DNA of 56,464 bases from Clostridia bacterium (GTDB lineage Bacteria > Bacillota > Clostridia > Christensenellales > Aristaeellaceae), in NCBI GenBank assembly GCA_017541205.1, contig JAFXZO010000077.1, positions 1-56,464 of the forward strand, written 5' to 3'. Each line of letters begins with the position of its first letter. Position 1 is the first letter of the stretch. The position numbers and the translations under genes are program-made. Below are positions 19,002-26,536 of the stretch, piece after piece. Below the pieces are notes generated by a model that was not told the origin of the DNA, searched no databases, and saw only the letters and a list, made by a program, of their open reading frames with translations.

Positions 19002-19568
19002 TTATTCTGCTTCCGTGAAATCGCCGATTTTGCCAAGCCGCTTTCCGATGCTGTGATACATGCCCGAATACACCACCGGATCGATCTTCGTCAAATCCAC
19101 GTCAAAGGGATCGGCACAGGTGAGCGTTTCGTCGATCTGAACGTTCCTGATCCGGCAGAAAAAGGTGGTGCTTTCCCCTACCTCGGCGGTCTTCCCCACC
19201 TCGCACTCGTAGATCCACGGGCTATTCTCCAGGATCGGCACGTCCAGCACGGCGCCAAGGCCGGCTGCGAACGGCAACGCATCCTTTTTCTGCTTCATGG
19301 ACGAATGTGTGCCCAAATAATCCATCAGGGGAAGCAGCGCCGTGGTGACGAGGTTCGCGCTGAATTTGCCCGTCCTGAGCACGTTTTCTTTGGTTCGCTT
19401 CTTCCCGAACATGCTGATGACCAGCCAATAATCGTTCCCCTTTTCGCACGTTGCGCTGACCCATGTGATCGGCGCGAAATTGTTTGATCCGTCCTCGTTT
19501 TTCGTACCGATGATAAACGCGGGCTGCACGCAGGAGGAAAAATGTGTTCCAACGGATTTCCTTTTCAT
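19002..19568 (-). CDS. Flavin reductase-like FMN-binding protein
   Basis: 188 residues. It belongs to the flavin reductase/FMN-binding split-barrel group, recognisable from NFAPITWVSATCEKGNDYW, the FGKKRTKEN segment and the C-terminal DVDLTKIDPVVYSGMYHSIG. Such proteins use FMN and NAD(P)H, or act as flavodoxin-like electron carriers, in the cytoplasm. I chose the ATG at 19568, which has GAAGGAG upstream; upstream in-frame starts lie inside the promoter. It is monocistronic. Confidence 0.88.
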   Translation of the reverse strand: MKRKSVGTHFSSCVQPAFIIGTKNEDGSNNFAPITWVSATCEKGNDYWLVISMFGKKRTKENVLRTGKFSANLVTTALLPLMDYLGTHSSMKQKKDALPFAAGLGAVLDVPILENSPWIYECEVGKTAEVGESTTFFCRIRNVQIDETLTCADPFDVDLTKIDPVVYSGMYHSIGKRLGKIGDFTEAE

Positions 19569-19634: not shown

Positions 19635-19696
19635 GTCATTTTTTTCATCCGACCCCTGTTTAAGGAAAGTTTACAGTTTCAGTTATTACAATTATA

Positions 19697-19725
19697 TTGC
19701 AATTTTGAAGTGAATTGATTACAAT
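19697..19725 (+). promoter_or_regulatory. Promoter of the four-gene motor-like operon
   Basis: TTGCAA (19697-19702), a 17-nt spacer and TACAAT (19720-19725) in an AT-rich stretch. The ribosome binding site GGAAGGAG (19743-19750) follows closely, leaving a leader of only about 25 nt. Confidence 0.65.
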
Positions 19726-19758
19726 AAGGAAGAAACGGTTCCGGAAGGAGTGGGAAGG

Positions 19759-21321
19759 TTGTCCGATTTTTTGCAGAATCTTACGGCAAATTTTGCCGCT
19801 AATGTGACGGATTTTTTGATTTATGCCGCGATTGCGCTCGTTATGCTGATCGGGATCGTCAAATGCGTGCTGCCGGTCAACCGGTCCGCCCGGCGGCTGC
19901 GCCGCGGCGTGCATCTGTTGGAAACATCGGGCGGCGAGGGCCGGCCCGTATGGCAGGATGTGCTGTTTTTGGGCAAAGAGGTGCAGGGGCCTTGGCGCAG
20001 GTTTTTGGTGAACGCCGAGCAGCTTGACCAGCGCGGGCTCAACTGCAATGTGGAGGATTATATCAACGACGATACGGTGATCTATTCCGTAGGCCACGCG
20101 CAGCTGGCGGAGGTGGTGCCTTCCCTGCTCACCAGCCTGGGTATCCTGGGCACGTTCATCGGCCTCATGCGCGGCCTTGGCGGCCTGGATGTGAGCGACG
20201 CCGCCAAAACCATGGACAGCATCCCCCAGATGATCGGGGGCATGACCTTCGCGTTCATGACTTCTATCGCCGGCATTTCCTGTTCTCTCGTTTTTAACAT
20301 GCTCAACCGCATGGCGTACGGAAGCGCGACCGGCGCGATCGACGAATTTACGGATGCGTTCGCGGACTTGGTGATGCAAAAGCCGCTGGAAGACAACGTG
20401 CAAATGATCTGCCAGCAGGAGGACCATTCCGCGCTGCTTCGCCGCCTGAGCGCCGATATGGGCTCGCGCGTGAGCGAAGGCATCGTTTCGGGCGTGGAGC
20501 AGTGCCTTACCCCGGTTGCGCAGAGCATGAACCAATTTATCCTCGGCCAGACGCAGGCCCAAATCGACGGTGTCGCGGGCATTGCCAGCCAATTCGTGAA
20601 CCAAATGAACCGCATGCTGGGCAATCAGTTCACCCAGCTTGGGCAGACCTTGTCCCAGGTGAACCAGGCGCAGGCCGTCTCCTTTGAATCCATGGACCGT
20701 ACGATGGCCGCCGCCGACCAGATCCTTTCCGGCTTAAGCCAGGTTCAGGAAGTGACCAATCGGGTCATGGAGCGGTTTGAAAGCTATATCAACACCATCG
20801 ACCAAGCCCAGGAAAGCAGCGGCGCGTTCCTGACGCACGGAAGCCAGGTCCTTTCCGGCATGCTCACCGCGTCCCAGGAGCAAAGCGATTTCCTTGCCTC
20901 TATCAAGACCGCGCAGCGGGATCTGCAAGCCTCCATGCACGAATACGCCGATTGGAGCGGGCGGGTGCTTTCCGCCGTTCAGACGCAGGCGGACGGCGCG
21001 ATGAATATGGCCGGGGATTTGAACGCCCGGATGGATGAGAGCAGCAGAAAGCTTTCCGACTCTTATTCCGCGTTCGTGCAGAATCTGTCCGGCGGCTTCA
21101 GCCAGGCGCTTGGCATGTTTGAAAAGAACATGCACGATTTGATGGGCGCGATGAATGAAAAGCTCGAGGAGATCCGTCAGGCCGAAAGCGCGCCCTCCGG
21201 GCAGGCGGCCCGGCTGCAAAAGGAAACCGAAGGCTGCGTGCAGTCCCTTTCCAAGCTGCAGCGCGCCCTGGCCCAAATGACCGCCGCGCTCGGCGCGGAC
21301 AGCGTTTCGGAGGGCAATTAA
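19759..21321 (+). CDS. MotA/TolQ/ExbB/ZorA-like ion-channel subunit with long helical tail
   Basis: 520 residues. I chose the TTG at 19759 because GGAAGGAG ends 8 nt before it; an in-frame GTG at 19750 overlaps that site. There is one N-terminal membrane helix (about 18-39), a cytoplasmic stretch, then the family core: LTSLGILGTFIGLMRGL (about 124-140) and IGGMTFAFMTSIAG leading into a third helix (about 159-183). Residues 200-515 are almost wholly helical and rich in Gln and Ala, consistent with a long cytoplasmic coiled coil. Core plus tail resembles ZorA of the Zorya defence motor more than flagellar MotA. It is followed after 1 nt by its MotB-like partner. Known relatives form 5:2 proton- or sodium-driven rotary stators. 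No flagellar or Zorya effector genes are present. Confidence 0.85.
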   Translation: MSDFLQNLTANFAANVTDFLIYAAIALVMLIGIVKCVLPVNRSARRLRRGVHLLETSGGEGRPVWQDVLFLGKEVQGPWRRFLVNAEQLDQRGLNCNVEDYINDDTVIYSVGHAQLAEVVPSLLTSLGILGTFIGLMRGLGGLDVSDAAKTMDSIPQMIGGMTFAFMTSIAGISCSLVFNMLNRMAYGSATGAIDEFTDAFADLVMQKPLEDNVQMICQQEDHSALLRRLSADMGSRVSEGIVSGVEQCLTPVAQSMNQFILGQTQAQIDGVAGIASQFVNQMNRMLGNQFTQLGQTLSQVNQAQAVSFESMDRTMAAADQILSGLSQVQEVTNRVMERFESYINTIDQAQESSGAFLTHGSQVLSGMLTASQEQSDFLASIKTAQRDLQASMHEYADWSGRVLSAVQTQADGAMNMAGDLNARMDESSRKLSDSYSAFVQNLSGGFSQALGMFEKNMHDLMGAMNEKLEEIRQAESAPSGQAARLQKETEGCVQSLSKLQRALAQMTAALGADSVSEGN

Positions 21322-21322
21322 G

Positions 21323-22333
21323 ATGGCGGCGCGCAGCAGAAACCGGCGCGGGCCGCAGTCAGGCGACCATGGGGCGCATTGGATCAGCTATTCGGACATG
21401 ATGGCCTCCCTGCTGCTGGTGTTCGTGCTGGCCGTGGTTTACAGCGTATATCAGTATTACAGCATGCTTGAAATCAAAACCAAGCAGCTGAACGAGCAGC
21501 AGGCGGAATTGGACCGGGCCACGATCACCCTGGTGCAGCGTGAAGAAGAGCTGGAAGCCGCGAACGTGACCCTAATGGGCAAGCAGGAAGAATTGGCCGC
21601 CATCCAGATCCAGCTGGATCAGCAGGAAAACGAGCTTCACGCCGCCCAAAGCGCCTTGAAAACCAAGGAAGAAGAGCAGGCCCTGCTGCAATTGCAGCTC
21701 GCCACCCAGGCGGACGCGCTCGCCGCCATGCAGACGGTGCTGGACGCGCAGCGGGCGGAAATGCTCTCCTATCAGCGGCAGATCGACGATATGGTGGGCG
21801 TCCGCACCAAGATCATCCGGGAATTGACGCAGGCCCTCGCCGAAGCCAACTTAGGGGCCAAGGTAGACCAGACGACCGGCGATATCATGCTGGAAAGCAC
21901 CGTATTTTTTGATTCCAATTCCAGCACAATTAAAGAGGAGGGCAAGGAGCTGCTCTCTCAATTCCTGCCGGTATATCTGGGCGTTCTGCTCCGAAACGAA
22001 TACGCCGATTATATGGGCGAGATCGTGATCGAGGGGCATACGGACACCGCCGGCTCGTACCTGGTGAACCTCCGGCTCAGCCAGACCCGCGCGCTGTCCG
22101 TGGCGGAATACTGCCTGCAAATGCGGTCGCTTTCCAGCAAACAGATTTCCCAGCTGCAAGCGCTGATGACCGCGAAGGGCCGCAGCTTTTCCGATCCCAT
22201 TTACAAGGCGGACGGCACCGTGGATATGGACGCGTCCCGCCGTGTGGAATTCAAATTCCGCCTGAAAGACGCGGAAATGGTGGACGAAATGAACCGGATC
22301 TTGATGCAGATGGAGGAGCAGGATAAGCATTGA
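21323..22333 (+). CDS. MotB/ZorB-like stator partner with OmpA peptidoglycan-binding domain
   Basis: 336 residues. A short basic N-terminus leads to a single membrane helix (about 27-46), whose Asp25 in ISYSDMMASLLLVF aligns with the ion-carrying aspartate of MotB. A coiled coil (about 50-175) follows, with heptad-like EEELEAAN and KQEELAAIQ units. The OmpA/MotB-type domain (about 190-320) has EGHTDTAGS (His239, Asp241), LRLSQTRA and DASRRVEF, the residues that hold meso-diaminopimelate peptidoglycan in this family. The coiled coil is far longer than in MotB, so the wall-binding domain sits well away from the membrane. It follows the channel gene by 1 nt and overlaps the next gene's TTG start. 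Confidence 0.88.
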   Translation: MAARSRNRRGPQSGDHGAHWISYSDMMASLLLVFVLAVVYSVYQYYSMLEIKTKQLNEQQAELDRATITLVQREEELEAANVTLMGKQEELAAIQIQLDQQENELHAAQSALKTKEEEQALLQLQLATQADALAAMQTVLDAQRAEMLSYQRQIDDMVGVRTKIIRELTQALAEANLGAKVDQTTGDIMLESTVFFDSNSSTIKEEGKELLSQFLPVYLGVLLRNEYADYMGEIVIEGHTDTAGSYLVNLRLSQTRALSVAEYCLQMRSLSSKQISQLQALMTAKGRSFSDPIYKADGTVDMDASRRVEFKFRLKDAEMVDEMNRILMQMEEQDKH

Positions 22334-22818
22334 AAGCCTTGGCGATCATCCTGACGGTATTGGTGCTGGCAGTGGCCGGATGCCTGTGCTATGAAATGTA
22401 CCATACCAAATTGGAGATAGTTGGAAAGGGCCTGCAGGTGTTGCCCGCGCAGGAAAGGAGCGCCCAGTTTGACGCGCTCCGCGACGCCATTTCCAACAGG
22501 ACCATGCAGGGCACGCTGCTCAGGGATGAGCCGCTTGCAAGCGCACAGGATTACACCTACTACATCTATTCCCTCCGCATCAAGAATCCGGGGCTGGTCA
22601 GCGCGGAAATGGTGGAATTGCAGATCGCTCCGACGGACGCCGATATCCTGTTTTACGGTGATACCCGGGAGATCGTGATCCCCGCCGGCCAGAGCAGGGA
22701 CGTTTGGTGCGTGCTGCTCACCAAGGGCACGCCCTCCCCTATCCGGGAAATCTTCATCACCTATTACTTATGGGGCCATCCCCTGGAAATGAGATATACC
22801 TATGACGACATGCGTTAG
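22330..22818 (+). CDS. Uncharacterised single-pass membrane protein of the motor operon
   Basis: 162 residues from a TTG start that overlaps the preceding stop (GGAGGAG lies 10 nt upstream). One N-terminal membrane helix (about 3-21) is followed by a short helical linker and a predicted extracytoplasmic beta-sandwich of about 95 residues. The latter includes YYIYSLRIKNPGLVSAEMVE, then IVIPAGQSRDVWCVLL near the end. Its shape recalls Ig-like or FxLD-type additions, but I recognise no family. The next gene starts 17 nt before this one stops, so the four genes are tightly coupled. A periplasm-side accessory of the stator is a reasonable guess. Confidence 0.75.
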   Translation: MKALAIILTVLVLAVAGCLCYEMYHTKLEIVGKGLQVLPAQERSAQFDALRDAISNRTMQGTLLRDEPLASAQDYTYYIYSLRIKNPGLVSAEMVELQIAPTDADILFYGDTREIVIPAGQSRDVWCVLLTKGTPSPIREIFITYYLWGHPLEMRYTYDDMR

Positions 22819-23515
22819 ATCGGCCGCGCGAATGCTGCCTTGCGTTTTTTTGCTTTTTTTGACGCTTTCCTCCGCGTCGGCGGAAACCGTCCCGGAGCCC
22901 GTCCATACGCTTCCCGAGGGCTTTTGCTATGTGCATGAAATGATCCCGGACGTGATCCTGGATATCCGCTACGCGGGCACGCATAATTTCGTGGGCGACG
23001 TGATCGACGGATATAAAGCGCCCTTCGCCATCCTGACCATCGAGGCGGCGGAACAGCTCAAGAAGGCTGCCGACGTATTTCGGCAGATGGGCTATCGCAT
23101 CATGATCTTTGACGCCTACCGCCCGCAGGACGCGGTCCGGCATTTTGTGCGCTGGTCCAAGGACGCGGACGACCTGCGCATGCAGGCTGAATTCTATCCG
23201 AAATACAAAAAGAAAAGCCTGCTGGTGGATCAGGGGTATATCGCCCGAAATTCGGCCCACTGCCGCGGCAGCGCGATCGATCTGACCCTTACGGACATGG
23301 ACGGCAATCCCCTTGATATGGGAACGGGCTTCGACTATTTCGGTTCGCTCGCCTGGCACGGCGCAAAAGGGATTTCCCAGGAAGCGCGGCAGAACCGCGA
23401 ACTGCTCAAATCCGTCATGGAGCGTTACGGCTTCAAGCCTTTCCAGCACGAATGGTGGCATTATCGCCTGCGCGTCGAGCCCTTCCACAGCGGCTTCAAT
23501 TTCCCGGTGGAATGA
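22802..23515 (+). CDS. Exported VanX/DdpX-like D-Ala-D-Ala dipeptidase (peptidase M15D)
   Basis: 237 residues. All key residues of the VanX family are present: Arg107 in DAYRP, zinc ligands His153 and Asp160 in SAHCRGSAID, catalytic Glu217 and zinc ligand His220 in EWWH. The spacings match VanX (His116, Asp123, Glu181, His184). Unlike cytoplasmic VanX it carries a signal peptide (about residues 1-27, ending SASAE), so it should act outside the membrane, on free D-Ala-D-Ala or on short wall peptides. It overlaps the upstream gene by 17 nt and ends at a terminator. There is no vanH, vanA or regulator gene beside it, so a resistance role is unlikely; cell-wall turnover with the motor proteins fits better. 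Confidence 0.88.
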   Translation: MTTCVRSAARMLPCVFLLFLTLSSASAETVPEPVHTLPEGFCYVHEMIPDVILDIRYAGTHNFVGDVIDGYKAPFAILTIEAAEQLKKAADVFRQMGYRIMIFDAYRPQDAVRHFVRWSKDADDLRMQAEFYPKYKKKSLLVDQGYIARNSAHCRGSAIDLTLTDMDGNPLDMGTGFDYFGSLAWHGAKGISQEARQNRELLKSVMERYGFKPFQHEWWHYRLRVEPFHSGFNFPVE

Positions 23516-23525
23516 CATGAAAAAG

Positions 23526-23556
23526 AGCGGCGGAGCATACAAGCCCGCCGCTTTGC
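23526..23556. terminator. Bidirectional terminator after the motor operon
   Basis: AGCGGCGG (23526-23533) pairs with CCGCCGCT (23545-23552) around an 11-nt loop. A-rich sequence lies on the left and TTTGCGCGTTTTT on the right. It separates the dipeptidase gene from the convergent GtrA gene. Confidence 0.8.
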
Positions 23557-23568
23557 GCGTTTTTGGGG

Positions 23569-24042
23569 CTATTCTTTTTTCTTGAAAATGACCAGCTTGC
23601 TGGCGAAATAGTTGAATACGATCACCAGGCCGTTCATCAGCAGCTTATCCCAATCGGCGTTCATGCCGAGCATCAAAAGCAAATTGAAAAGCCCGGCGTC
23701 AAAGAGCGCCAGCGACGCGATGCGGGCGCTCACGAACAGCCAAAATTCCCGCCAGGCGCCGGTCTTTATGTCCGTTTCGCTTTTGAACACGTATTTTTTG
23801 TTGGTAAAGAACGCGAACAGCACCGAAGCGATCCAGCCCGTGATGTTGCCGGCGTTGGCGACCCATTTGTAATGCGCGCTGCCCTGCTCCATGTTCCGGA
23901 TACCCAGCAGGCGCGTCACCGCAAAATACACCGCGTAATTGACCGCCGTTGTCAGCAGGCCGAACACGATGTACAAAGCCATTTCCCGCATCCTGCTTTT
24001 ATCTTTCAGGAGCGTCTTCACATTTTCCATCAGTTTTCCCAT
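23569..24042 (-). CDS. GtrA-family membrane protein
   Basis: 157 residues with four membrane helices. GtrA-like signatures are YIVFGLLTTAVNYAVYF near the N-terminus and VFAFFTNKKYVFKS-like FAFFTNKKYVFKSE in the middle. Members are proposed to flip or help transfer polyprenyl-phosphate-linked sugars in cell-surface glycan synthesis. AAAGAGGAAG precedes the ATG at 24042. The start lies inside the end of the upstream 94-residue gene (44-nt overlap), and both follow the large GT-C-like gene in one operon. Confidence 0.9.
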   Translation of the reverse strand: MGKLMENVKTLLKDKSRMREMALYIVFGLLTTAVNYAVYFAVTRLLGIRNMEQGSAHYKWVANAGNITGWIASVLFAFFTNKKYVFKSETDIKTGAWREFWLFVSARIASLALFDAGLFNLLLMLGMNADWDKLLMNGLVIVFNYFASKLVIFKKKE

Positions 24043-24287: not shown

Positions 24288-26327
24288 TTATATCCCGGAC
24301 ACGGCGTATATAACGATGGCATCGTTTCCCGCGCTTTCATAGATTTTCTGGAAATTGGCGTCCAAGGCCTGGGTATTGACCGTATAATCGCTGCGTTCGT
24401 AGCTGGAAACAAAGATATATTTCACGCCGTATTTTGTCAGCACGCCGATATTGCCGACCGGATCCGCGTAAAAGGCACGGATATCCTGTTTGCGGCTTTC
24501 GGTGTCATAGCCGTGCATGTAGAGATAGATATCAGTTCCGCATACGATCCGGCGCCCCGCCAGGCTGCAAATCAGATTGATATGCTCGGTGCCGGTGAGG
24601 AAGGTCGCGTGCGGCTCGGTGTTCTCTTCCACAAATTCCGCGGCGGCCACAGCCTCCTTGGAAAACATCTGATAATCGCTTTTGCATTCCCGGGCGATCG
24701 ATAGGGCTCCGGAGGAAAAGAACACGATCAGCGAAAGCGCCGCGACCACGGGACGCGCGCGCAGGCCCTTCATGCGGTCCAGCAGTTCAAAGCCGTAATC
24801 CGCCGCCAGCACGGCGCACAGCATATACCAGATATAGAACAGCTTGTTATTGTCATATTCGTTGGGCTGGAACTGGATCAATTCCGCCGCCAGGAAAATG
24901 ACGAACGCGCCGGCGGCCAGAAAGCGCCGCTTTTCGTTTTTTTCGAGCAGGGAAAGCAGGATCAGGATAAACGGGACGCCGATGTTTTTGATATAGAACC
25001 ACAGGTATCCATCCCGCAATCCGCCGCCCGTATTGTTGACCCAGTTGAAGTGGAAGGTCAGGAAATGCTCGTTGCCGACGGTCTGCCCAAAGGTCCAGAT
25101 GAAAAGCTGCGGCAGGGCCACGGCGGCGGCGATCGCACCGTAAACCAGCCAGAACAGGAAAGCTTTTTTCATTTCGTGACGGCAATGGACCAGATCGTAG
25201 ATCATAAAGCCCAGGCTCGCCAGCGCAAGCGCCAGGAAGCAATGCGTGTTCACCATCGGCAGCATGCCCGCCCATACGCCCAGCAGCAGCATCTGCCGCC
25301 AGGTCAGCTCGCGCTTATGCCATACGGCGGTCGGCCCGCCCTCATCATTCATGAATTCCACGCCCCATGGCGTCGGCGGCTGAAGGGTATCATAGAGCAG
25401 ATAGAGGCACGGGAGCACCTGACACCAGCCGGCCAGCGTGGTGCGCTGCGGCACCATCATATCCACGATCACGTTGCTCCAGCGCAGGTTATAGGTGCCG
25501 AACTCCGCATGATTGGTGGGGGTCTGATACCAGCCGCTGAGCACGGCCTCAATGCGTTCCCACAGCCCCTTCACACTTTGCAGCTCGTTGTTCCCATAGG
25601 AGCCGAGCACCTCTCCCTGCATATCCACCAGGTACATGAAGCCCAGGCCTCCGTTGACAAAAAACAGGAAAACGGCAAGTATCGCCGCGCGCTTGCTTGC
25701 CGCCATCCGGTCAGCCAGGATGGCGTAGCCCGTAAACGTGAGCGCCGTCATCAGGATGCCCGGCACCAGCACAGCCGCGCGAAGCGGCAGGCCAAGCAGC
25801 ATAAAGCTGGTGGATAACGTATCGGCCAGGAACGGATAAGCCAGCCGATAGCCGGGCAGGATGCTGTAATCCGCGGGGAACGAGGCGTTGCGCATGCCGG
25901 TAATGATGGATAAATGCAGCGGCAAATCGCCATAGGTGGATTGGCCGACATGCAAAGAGCCGTTGGAAACCGGCATGATGATATGCGTCCATTGCAGGTA
26001 CGCGCCTATCAGCGTGAGCGGCAGCACGGTAAAAGCGAGGGTTTTGAGCAGCCGGGTATCCTGCTCCGTCCAGGGCGCCCAGGATGCTTTGTCGCGCAGG
26101 ACATAGGCCAGGACCGACAGCAGGATCAATACGCCCATGGCCAGCGCGTGCGCCCCGATCGAAAATTTTAGAATGAACGCGGCGATGGCCGGCAGCCACA
26201 TCATGAGAACCAGTCCAAGGCACAGCCCGAGCCAGATCCGCACCAATAGAGACTTCCGCGGAAACAGGCAGAACAGGATCAATGTGCCGCAGTAACCGAA
26301 CAGGATCAAATACAGTATGCCAAGCAT
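24288..26327 (-). CDS. Large polytopic membrane protein, GT-C glycosyltransferase-like
   Basis: 679 residues. I chose the ATG at 26327, preceded by GGACGGAGG; further upstream in-frame codons pass through the promoter. About 14 membrane helices are followed by a soluble C-terminal region of about 130 residues (EENTEPHATFLTGTEHINLI ... YIFVSSYERSDY). The first long outer loop carries an acidic motif, STYGDLPLHLSI, as GT-C enzymes do for a polyprenyl-phosphate sugar donor. The C-terminal region resembles those of dolichyl-phosphate-mannose-type enzymes. With GtrA downstream it may move sugars onto wall or lipid glycans. The acceptor is unknown. Confidence 0.75.
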   Translation of the reverse strand: MLGILYLILFGYCGTLILFCLFPRKSLLVRIWLGLCLGLVLMMWLPAIAAFILKFSIGAHALAMGVLILLSVLAYVLRDKASWAPWTEQDTRLLKTLAFTVLPLTLIGAYLQWTHIIMPVSNGSLHVGQSTYGDLPLHLSIITGMRNASFPADYSILPGYRLAYPFLADTLSTSFMLLGLPLRAAVLVPGILMTALTFTGYAILADRMAASKRAAILAVFLFFVNGGLGFMYLVDMQGEVLGSYGNNELQSVKGLWERIEAVLSGWYQTPTNHAEFGTYNLRWSNVIVDMMVPQRTTLAGWCQVLPCLYLLYDTLQPPTPWGVEFMNDEGGPTAVWHKRELTWRQMLLLGVWAGMLPMVNTHCFLALALASLGFMIYDLVHCRHEMKKAFLFWLVYGAIAAAVALPQLFIWTFGQTVGNEHFLTFHFNWVNNTGGGLRDGYLWFYIKNIGVPFILILLSLLEKNEKRRFLAAGAFVIFLAAELIQFQPNEYDNNKLFYIWYMLCAVLAADYGFELLDRMKGLRARPVVAALSLIVFFSSGALSIARECKSDYQMFSKEAVAAAEFVEENTEPHATFLTGTEHINLICSLAGRRIVCGTDIYLYMHGYDTESRKQDIRAFYADPVGNIGVLTKYGVKYIFVSSYERSDYTVNTQALDANFQKIYESAGNDAIVIYAVSGI

Positions 26328-26358
26328 GGCGTCCTCCGTCCTTTCATGATACAGGCCT

Positions 26359-26387
26359 ATTATACTTGATCTGAGGGAAAAAGGCAA
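26359..26387 (-). promoter_or_regulatory. Promoter of the GT-C-like / GtrA operon
   Basis: On the minus strand, TTGCCT (26382-26387), a 17-nt spacer and perfect TATAAT (26359-26364), 31 nt before the start codon. It lies just after the terminator of the polysaccharide operon. Confidence 0.8.
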
Positions 26388-26446
26388 TTCCCAAATAGGG
26401 AAACGAAGACGTCGGCCCATGCGCAGGGCGGTCTGTGCCGGGGAAA

Positions 26447-26483
26447 AGCAAAAAGACCGTCCCGGGAAAACGCGGGGACGGTC
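26447..26483 (-). terminator. Terminator of the polysaccharide operon
   Basis: On the minus strand GACCGTCCC pairs with GGGACGGTC (26455-26483), followed by TTTTTGC. It lies 115 nt after the flippase stop codon and ends the 12-gene transcript. Confidence 0.85.
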
Positions 26484-26536
26484 ACGGAAGAGGTGAAAGC
26501 CAAAAATCAACAGCTTGATCGGACCGTGAGAGCCGA

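Follow-up and report, generated by a model that had tools for sequence, protein, structure and literature searches.

A near-universal ZorAB-class motor operon in a single-membrane family of Clostridia, probably distinct from Zorya defence

In ion motors of the 5:2 type, ions pass between the A and B subunits at an aspartate residue, turning one against the other. The described systems of this kind include the flagellar stators (MotAB, PomAB and MotPS), the TolQR-TolA-Pal and ExbBD-TonB machines of the cell envelope, and the ZorAB pair of Zorya types I and II; motors of the ZorAB class are known so far as anti-phage devices. In the available passages of a study of Zorya (PMC11890865), the A ring is modelled as turning against a peptidoglycan-held B subunit, the tail of ZorA is needed, and a differential spread across genomes is given as typical of anti-phage systems. 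Described here is a four-gene operon that encodes a motor pair of this class (termed ZA and ZB), a small membrane protein (termed DUF) and a VanX-type dipeptidase. It lies in a stretch of 56,464 nucleotides (nt) from a Clostridia bacterium of the Aristaeellaceae (assembly GCA_017541205.1, contig JAFXZO010000077.1), which was analysed as a whole and is referred to below as ‘the window’.

The operon is probably not the virus-defence system that it resembles, since the pair is retained by nearly every sampled genome of one bacterial family; vertical retention of a non-flagellar, peptidoglycan-tethered motor fits these observations better than a patchily distributed defence system. The reading that is favoured here, with a probability of roughly 0.65, is that the operon encodes a ZorAB-class, 5:2-type ion motor that serves as a standing cell-wall machine of a single-membrane Clostridia family, rather than as an anti-phage device. 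Profile comparisons place the pair within the ZorAB-class motor lineage and, by the criteria examined, outside the Zorya system. No description of such a pair was found in the part of the literature that was consulted; the trees of PMC12505986 exclude ZorAB, so that, as far as its available passages indicate, the group to which the operon belongs is not covered there.

The operon and its motor subunits

Four genes make up the operon, with lengths given in amino acids (aa):

19750-21321, forward strand: ZA, a ZorA/MotA-class channel subunit, 523 aa as listed
21323-22333, forward strand: ZB, a ZorB/MotB-class subunit, 336 aa
22330-22818, forward strand: DUF, a membrane protein, 162 aa
22802-23515, forward strand: VanX-type D-Ala-D-Ala dipeptidase (M15), 237 aa

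The ZA and ZB genes are separated by a gap of 1 nt, and the junctions between ZB and DUF and between DUF and the dipeptidase overlap by 4 nt and 17 nt, respectively; these open reading frame (ORF) coordinates agree with an earlier note on this DNA, which had described a four-gene operon with one such gap and two overlaps. Among 80 fetched relatives of ZB, every one has ZA adjoining ZB; 74 have DUF as an ORF of its own (within the operon in 73, and about 4 kb further on in L045), and one has it fused to the dipeptidase; and the dipeptidase is in place in 24. Because gene order is kept across these relatives, the four-gene arrangement is not a product of chance. The four genes form one real, tight operon, whose conserved core is ZA-ZB-DUF and does not include the dipeptidase. 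In one relative (L106:4484-6652, in genome G300), ZA and ZB share a single reading frame of 722 aa, which may represent a natural fusion or a stop codon lost in assembly; the DUF and dipeptidase genes come next and overlap.

ZA was predicted in the earlier note to combine a MotA/ExbB core with a helical tail of about 300 residues, and profile searches bear this out: it matches Pfam MotA_ExbB (2.6e-5), its best match among described families is ZorA (PADLOC, 4.7e-27), and it aligns with the solved ZorA structure 8vvn (6.6e-24, profile positions 96-426); its score against the NCBIfam ZorA profile lies under the cut-off (82.3 of 100 bits). A hydropathy scan gives three transmembrane (TM) segments (residues 23-41, 122-140 and 167-185), in addition to the cytoplasmic tail. 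All 41 aligned rows share six channel-region residues (Thr128, Ser129, Thr135, Thr171, Ser172 and Ser179). Mean pairwise identity is 66% in the channel helices and only 24% in the tail, the end of which is gapped in 41% of alignment cells and which is much shortened in a large clade. The alignment of relatives also suggests that the true start of ZA is the TTG at 19759, not the GTG at 19750. No other MotA_ExbB protein was seen in the window’s genome, which is 85% complete.

ZB consists of a TM helix (residues 21-39) that includes Asp25, a coiled coil (about 46-156) and an OmpA peptidoglycan-binding domain (about 190-312; Pfam OmpA, 6.4e-14), which is the architecture that had been proposed for it. 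Its best match among described families is ZorB (PADLOC ZorB1, 1.2e-70; solved ZorB 8qyd, 2.9e-22), which ranks above the MotB families; the score falls under the NCBIfam ZorB cut-off (76.3 of 400 bits), that for Pfam MotB_plug falls under its cut-off as well (21.8 bits, against 24), and no ExbD family match was returned by Pfam up to an E-value of 1. Asp25 is present in 48 of 48 aligned rows, as are Asp241 and Arg256 of the OmpA domain, two residues that would be expected to bind the wall peptide. Mean pairwise identity is 75% in the TM helix and 62% in the OmpA domain.

The coiled coil between these domains varies in length almost only in heptad steps. Its length was taken as the distance from Asp25 to a coil-ending motif, EGH[TA]D, in 95 rows from the family, and a second anchor was placed at the OmpA domain. 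The difference from the window’s own coil is a multiple of seven in 82 of the 85 rows measured with the first anchor, and in 83 of 92 with the second; the differences span -14 to +77 residues, and 10 of the 13 distinct lengths differ from the window’s by such a multiple, an outcome with a chance of about 7e-7 if lengths were free. Changes of length in heptad steps indicate a continuous coiled coil whose register is kept, which would allow ZB to act as a shaft that carries torque. At the usual helix rise, 110 residues correspond to about 16 nm. The aspartate and the motif lie 212 residues apart in the window’s ZB; two ZorB-like relatives have corresponding distances of 143 and 125. An extreme form of the shaft is found about 6 kb from the first pair on one contig of the family (that of L069, genome G254), where a second ZA-ZB pair on the opposite strand (L119:10305-13765) includes a ZB-like protein of 647 aa, with a very long, repetitive coil and apparently two OmpA-like units in tandem.

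With the Zorya pair, the operon shares the adjacency and order of its ZorA- and ZorB-class genes, Ser/Thr residues in the channel, the ZorB-type aspartate, the OmpA-type wall-binding domain and the long helical tail of the A subunit; it differs in its ZB coiled coil of about 110 residues, its linked Ig-like membrane protein, its scores below the NCBIfam cut-offs for both subunits, and the distribution described in the next section. The flagellar stators have in common with it the MotA_ExbB core, a MotB-type N-terminus with its aspartate, and a peptidoglycan-binding domain of the OmpA type, whereas ZA is predicted by hydropathy to have three TM helices rather than four, and profiles rank ZorB above the MotB families for ZB. 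No flagellar gene is found in the operon or among its neighbours in the window, a statement confined to these genes because no genome-wide flagellar search was made. TolQR-TolA-Pal and ExbBD-TonB are likewise ion-driven 5:2 envelope machines with a housekeeping role and an output on the wall or periplasmic side (PMC12905483, in its available passages). Those machines, unlike the one described here, serve two-membrane cells: Omp85, a marker of the outer membrane, was found in 0 of 16 genomes of the operon’s family and in 7 of 14 controls. Moreover, ZB carries an OmpA domain in place of any Pfam ExbD match.

Distribution of the motor and its partners

Three samples were searched: 150 genomes of the family (85 of them high-quality, from 50 genera); an order-level sample of 23 family members and 274 others; and a class-level sample of 389 genomes from outside the family, plus two family members. 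ZB is found in 140 of the 150 family genomes, in 82 of the 85 of high quality and in 47 of the 50 genera, a pattern at odds with the patchy distribution of a defence system. The order sample yields it in 22 of the 23 family members and in 3 of the 274 remaining genomes; outside the family, the class sample yields it in 57 of 389. DUF is more narrowly confined (130 of 150 family genomes; 80 of 85 high-quality genomes; 22 of 23 family members and 0 of 274 others in the order sample; two family members and one weak partial match in the class sample). Both genes occur in 127 of the 150 family genomes, one alone in 16 and neither in 7, giving a Fisher p of 2.5e-5 for their co-occurrence, without correction for relatedness among the genomes or for contigs that are missing.

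The ZorC family (PF15611) was matched in 0 of the 150 family genomes, and in none of the 14 control genomes of that search. As these built-in controls were silent, the search was rerun on five other Clostridia with ZB-like genes, and PF15611 was found beside those genes in two (G614 and G647). Membership of Zorya was rejected on the basis of this absence, together with the near-universal spread of ZB. Of 74 available genes immediately downstream of the operon in relatives, 62 were examined (from mechanical gene calls); they are mixed housekeeping genes, with no PADLOC match to the Zor families (ZorC, ZorD and ZorE). Other PADLOC matches among the 62 number one or two each and are weak or belong to unrelated defence families, the best being mad3 (9.5e-50) and mad8 (1.8e-22), in one neighbour each. 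That the pair stands without the ZorC family supports the stand-alone motor of the earlier note.

ZorAB-like pairs with other neighbours were encountered in passing. Three loci from another Clostridia family (L125-L127) have, next after such a pair, a gene for a protein of 391-402 aa, which is without a PADLOC match in L125 and L126 and without a Pfam match in L125; these possibly represent a further Zorya-like subtype. In L132 and L134, the gene after the pair encodes a TPR protein of some 325 aa (identified by Pfam TPR in L132, and in L134 by a similar start only).

The steady partner of the pair is DUF, which has no Pfam match and no significant sequence match in the PDB. Structure prediction (mean predicted local distance difference test score, pLDDT, of 94.7) assigns it, with high confidence, one N-terminal TM helix that anchors an external immunoglobulin-like (Ig-like) beta-sandwich. 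In 80 of the 127 family genomes that carry both genes, DUF lies directly after ZB. Where it is unlinked, 9 of 20 regions have it divergently beside a gene from a family whose products are about 865 aa long; the single member examined was identified as DNA polymerase I. Five genomes from two genera (L083-L087) have DUF in a convergent arrangement with a dipeptidase gene that encodes no signal peptide, at a site separate from ZA-ZB.

The dipeptidase matches Pfam Peptidase_M15 (2.4e-40) and solved VanX (1r44, 2.2e-45) over the whole catalytic domain, and alignment with 1r44 places the zinc ligands and catalytic residues of VanX within it. All six positions aligned with R71, S114, H116, D123, E181 and H184 of VanX, which we take to be its active-site residues, are invariant in 24 of 24 rows, in accord with what the earlier note had claimed. 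Its differences from VanX are a signal-peptide-like N-terminus (hydrophobic and ending in ASA), an operon free of resistance genes, and a score under the NCBIfam VanX equivalog cut-off (192.2 versus 320 bits). The signal peptide that had been proposed is thus likely for the window’s copy, and does not extend to the linked copies of L055, L066 and L120, which lack one.

This gene is a later add-on to the operon. Only 15 of the 140 ZB-bearing family genomes have it next to ZB, and its Pfam family (M15) has no match in 54 of the 150. Quick trees, supported only by the Shimodaira-Hasegawa-like approximate likelihood ratio test (SH-aLRT), were built for ZB (99 rows) and for the dipeptidase. In the first, the deep branches of the family hold ZA-ZB and carry DUF at another site in the genome. 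A large clade has DUF downstream of ZB, and part of that clade also has the dipeptidase downstream of DUF, although several lineages within this part no longer carry it there (among them L019, L023-L025, L026, L027-L030, L031-L033, L036 and L041). In L105, the dipeptidase follows ZB with no DUF between them. Two species carry an in-frame fusion of DUF and dipeptidase (L065 and L104, of 390 and 399 aa), and L055, L066 and L120, with a separate dipeptidase, fall in the same small clade as these. At least four changes of linkage are required by the ZB tree. In the dipeptidase tree, 24 linked copies form one clade (SH-aLRT 99), and the five copies of the fused and non-exported group stand apart, with unlinked copies between; as the linked copies thus form two groups, one or two recruitments fit. 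Two further VanX-type genes of the window’s genome (G000:C51:4137-4736 and G000:C106:42531-43130) group with other unlinked copies (L156 and L157).

Flanks and control sites

The surroundings of the operon in the window comprise the following features:

19002-19568, reverse strand: flavin reductase-like gene, upstream flank
19670-19698, forward strand: promoter-like site TTTACA-17-TATATT (10 of 12 matches), between the divergent flavin reductase gene and ZA
23524-23554, forward strand: GC-rich hairpin 3′ of the last gene, a probable terminator (fold z -2.67)
23569-24042, reverse strand: GtrA-like gene, downstream flank

Both flanking genes point away from the operon, which therefore stands alone as a four-gene unit. 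A single promoter and a single terminator had been proposed for it. A site of the first kind is present at the expected place, in a scanned region where such sites number four versus a shuffle mean of 3.3, so that the class as a whole is not above chance; the hairpin folds better than most shuffles of the same stretch (4 of 200 being equally good), and is not listed by a strict terminator scan. Pfam identifies the neighbours in the window as a lipase, a Na/Pi cotransporter, the flavin reductase and GtrA. A further ORF of 740 aa (24288-26510, reverse strand) resembles a membrane protein and has no Pfam match up to an E-value of 1.

Competing readings and a proposed mechanism

Several observations weigh against a standing wall machine that is common to the family. 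Seven of the 150 family genomes lack both ZB and DUF, 13 have ZB without DUF and three have DUF without ZB; outside the family, three genomes from elsewhere in the order give weak ZB matches, and there is one weak partial DUF match (G778, 1e-4). As for the shaft, the coil length departs from a multiple of seven in 3 of 85 and 9 of 92 rows with the two anchors, 10 and 3 of the 95 rows give no value with the first and second anchor, respectively, and the hydrophobic periodicity of the window’s own coil peaks at 7.0, above the 95% level of shuffles, but not above their maximum.

The strongest competitor, although unlikely, is a Zorya-like sensor, in which ZB would feel damage to or deformation of the wall, ions would flow, and the turning tail of ZA would recruit a cytoplasmic effector, encoded elsewhere, for anti-phage or stress responses. 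ZorA and ZorB are indeed the closest described relatives of the pair, the scheme matches the published Zorya model, and the long tail that Zorya requires is kept in ZA (PMC11890865, in its available passages). Yet ZorC is missing from the family, no Zor family appears among the downstream neighbours, the tail is poorly conserved and in a large clade much shortened, and a near-universal distribution at a single locus contrasts with the differential spread of anti-phage systems (same source and passages). A motor for gliding or surface movement is a very unlikely alternative; other non-flagellar 5:2 motors do serve that purpose (GldLM, PMC12905483; AglRS, PMC12505986; both in their available passages) and no flagellar stator was seen in the window’s genome, but the neighbourhoods of the operon have no adhesin, track or motility gene in common, their 62 downstream genes being of the mixed housekeeping kind.

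The part played by the dipeptidase has been viewed in two other ways. The earlier note had proposed that the motor drives release or recycling of D-Ala-D-Ala through this enzyme. The tight translational overlap in the window, its place in 24 of the 80 relatives, the fusions to DUF, the invariant active site and the adjoining of DUF and dipeptidase in L083-L087 all speak for a tie, and within its own lineage the tie to the operon does hold. As the output of the motor, such release is nonetheless highly improbable: the linkage in 15 of 140 genomes (on which ground it was rejected as a core function), the frequent lack of any M15 match, and the missing signal peptides stand against it, the convergent genes of L083-L087 leave no room for a shared transcript, and the steady partner is DUF. 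That the enzyme is a mere passenger, one of the family’s several exported VanX-like paralogues that was inserted downstream of the motor genes on one or two occasions and is just transcribed along with them, is also improbable, if a little less so. The further copies in the window’s genome, the separation of the 24 linked copies from the five others, and the repeated changes of linkage would suit a passenger, but the gene is kept across most of a clade that reaches down to 57-70% identity in ZB and ZA, it overlaps its neighbour, and it is fused in frame in two species. More broadly, the pair is not always accompanied by ZorC/D or flagellar genes, nor always without the dipeptidase, and unrelated neighbours of the dipeptidase, which the earlier note had held would tell against its reading, are found only outside the linked lineages.

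For the wall machine that is favoured here, the following mechanism is proposed. Ion flow would turn ZA and ZB against each other and, because ZB holds peptidoglycan, the torque would travel along the ZB shaft to the wall side, where DUF might act as an extracytoplasmic adaptor or clutch, on either the shaft or the wall-binding domain. In the window’s lineage, a dd-dipeptidase would have been recruited to the same place, through a shared transcript or by fusion onto DUF, and may clear or recycle the D-Ala-D-Ala that is freed by wall remodelling near the machine. An output at the wall, and not by way of the cytoplasmic tail, is given slightly less than an even chance; it is favoured because the channel, the ZB TM helix and the OmpA domain are constrained and the ZA tail is not, and because the pair comes with no gene for a cytoplasmic partner and its steady companion faces outward. 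More tentatively still, the operon could be a one-membrane counterpart of Tol-Pal: a motor that forms part of the core equipment of a family of gut Clostridia, with a shaft quantised in heptads, an Ig-like adaptor, and wall enzymes added lineage by lineage.

These results carry a warning, in that profiles of the PADLOC type give strong scores to a pair with probably no role in defence. A near-universal ZorAB-class motor without ZorC would demonstrate a housekeeping use of this motor lineage. If the reading is true, single-membrane bacteria gain an ion-driven wall machine besides the flagellar stator, the coupling of motor to wall (through shaft length and the Ig-like adaptor) and a shared origin with a defence system become testable, and the Zorya defence motors and the wall machine would be two uses of one motor lineage.

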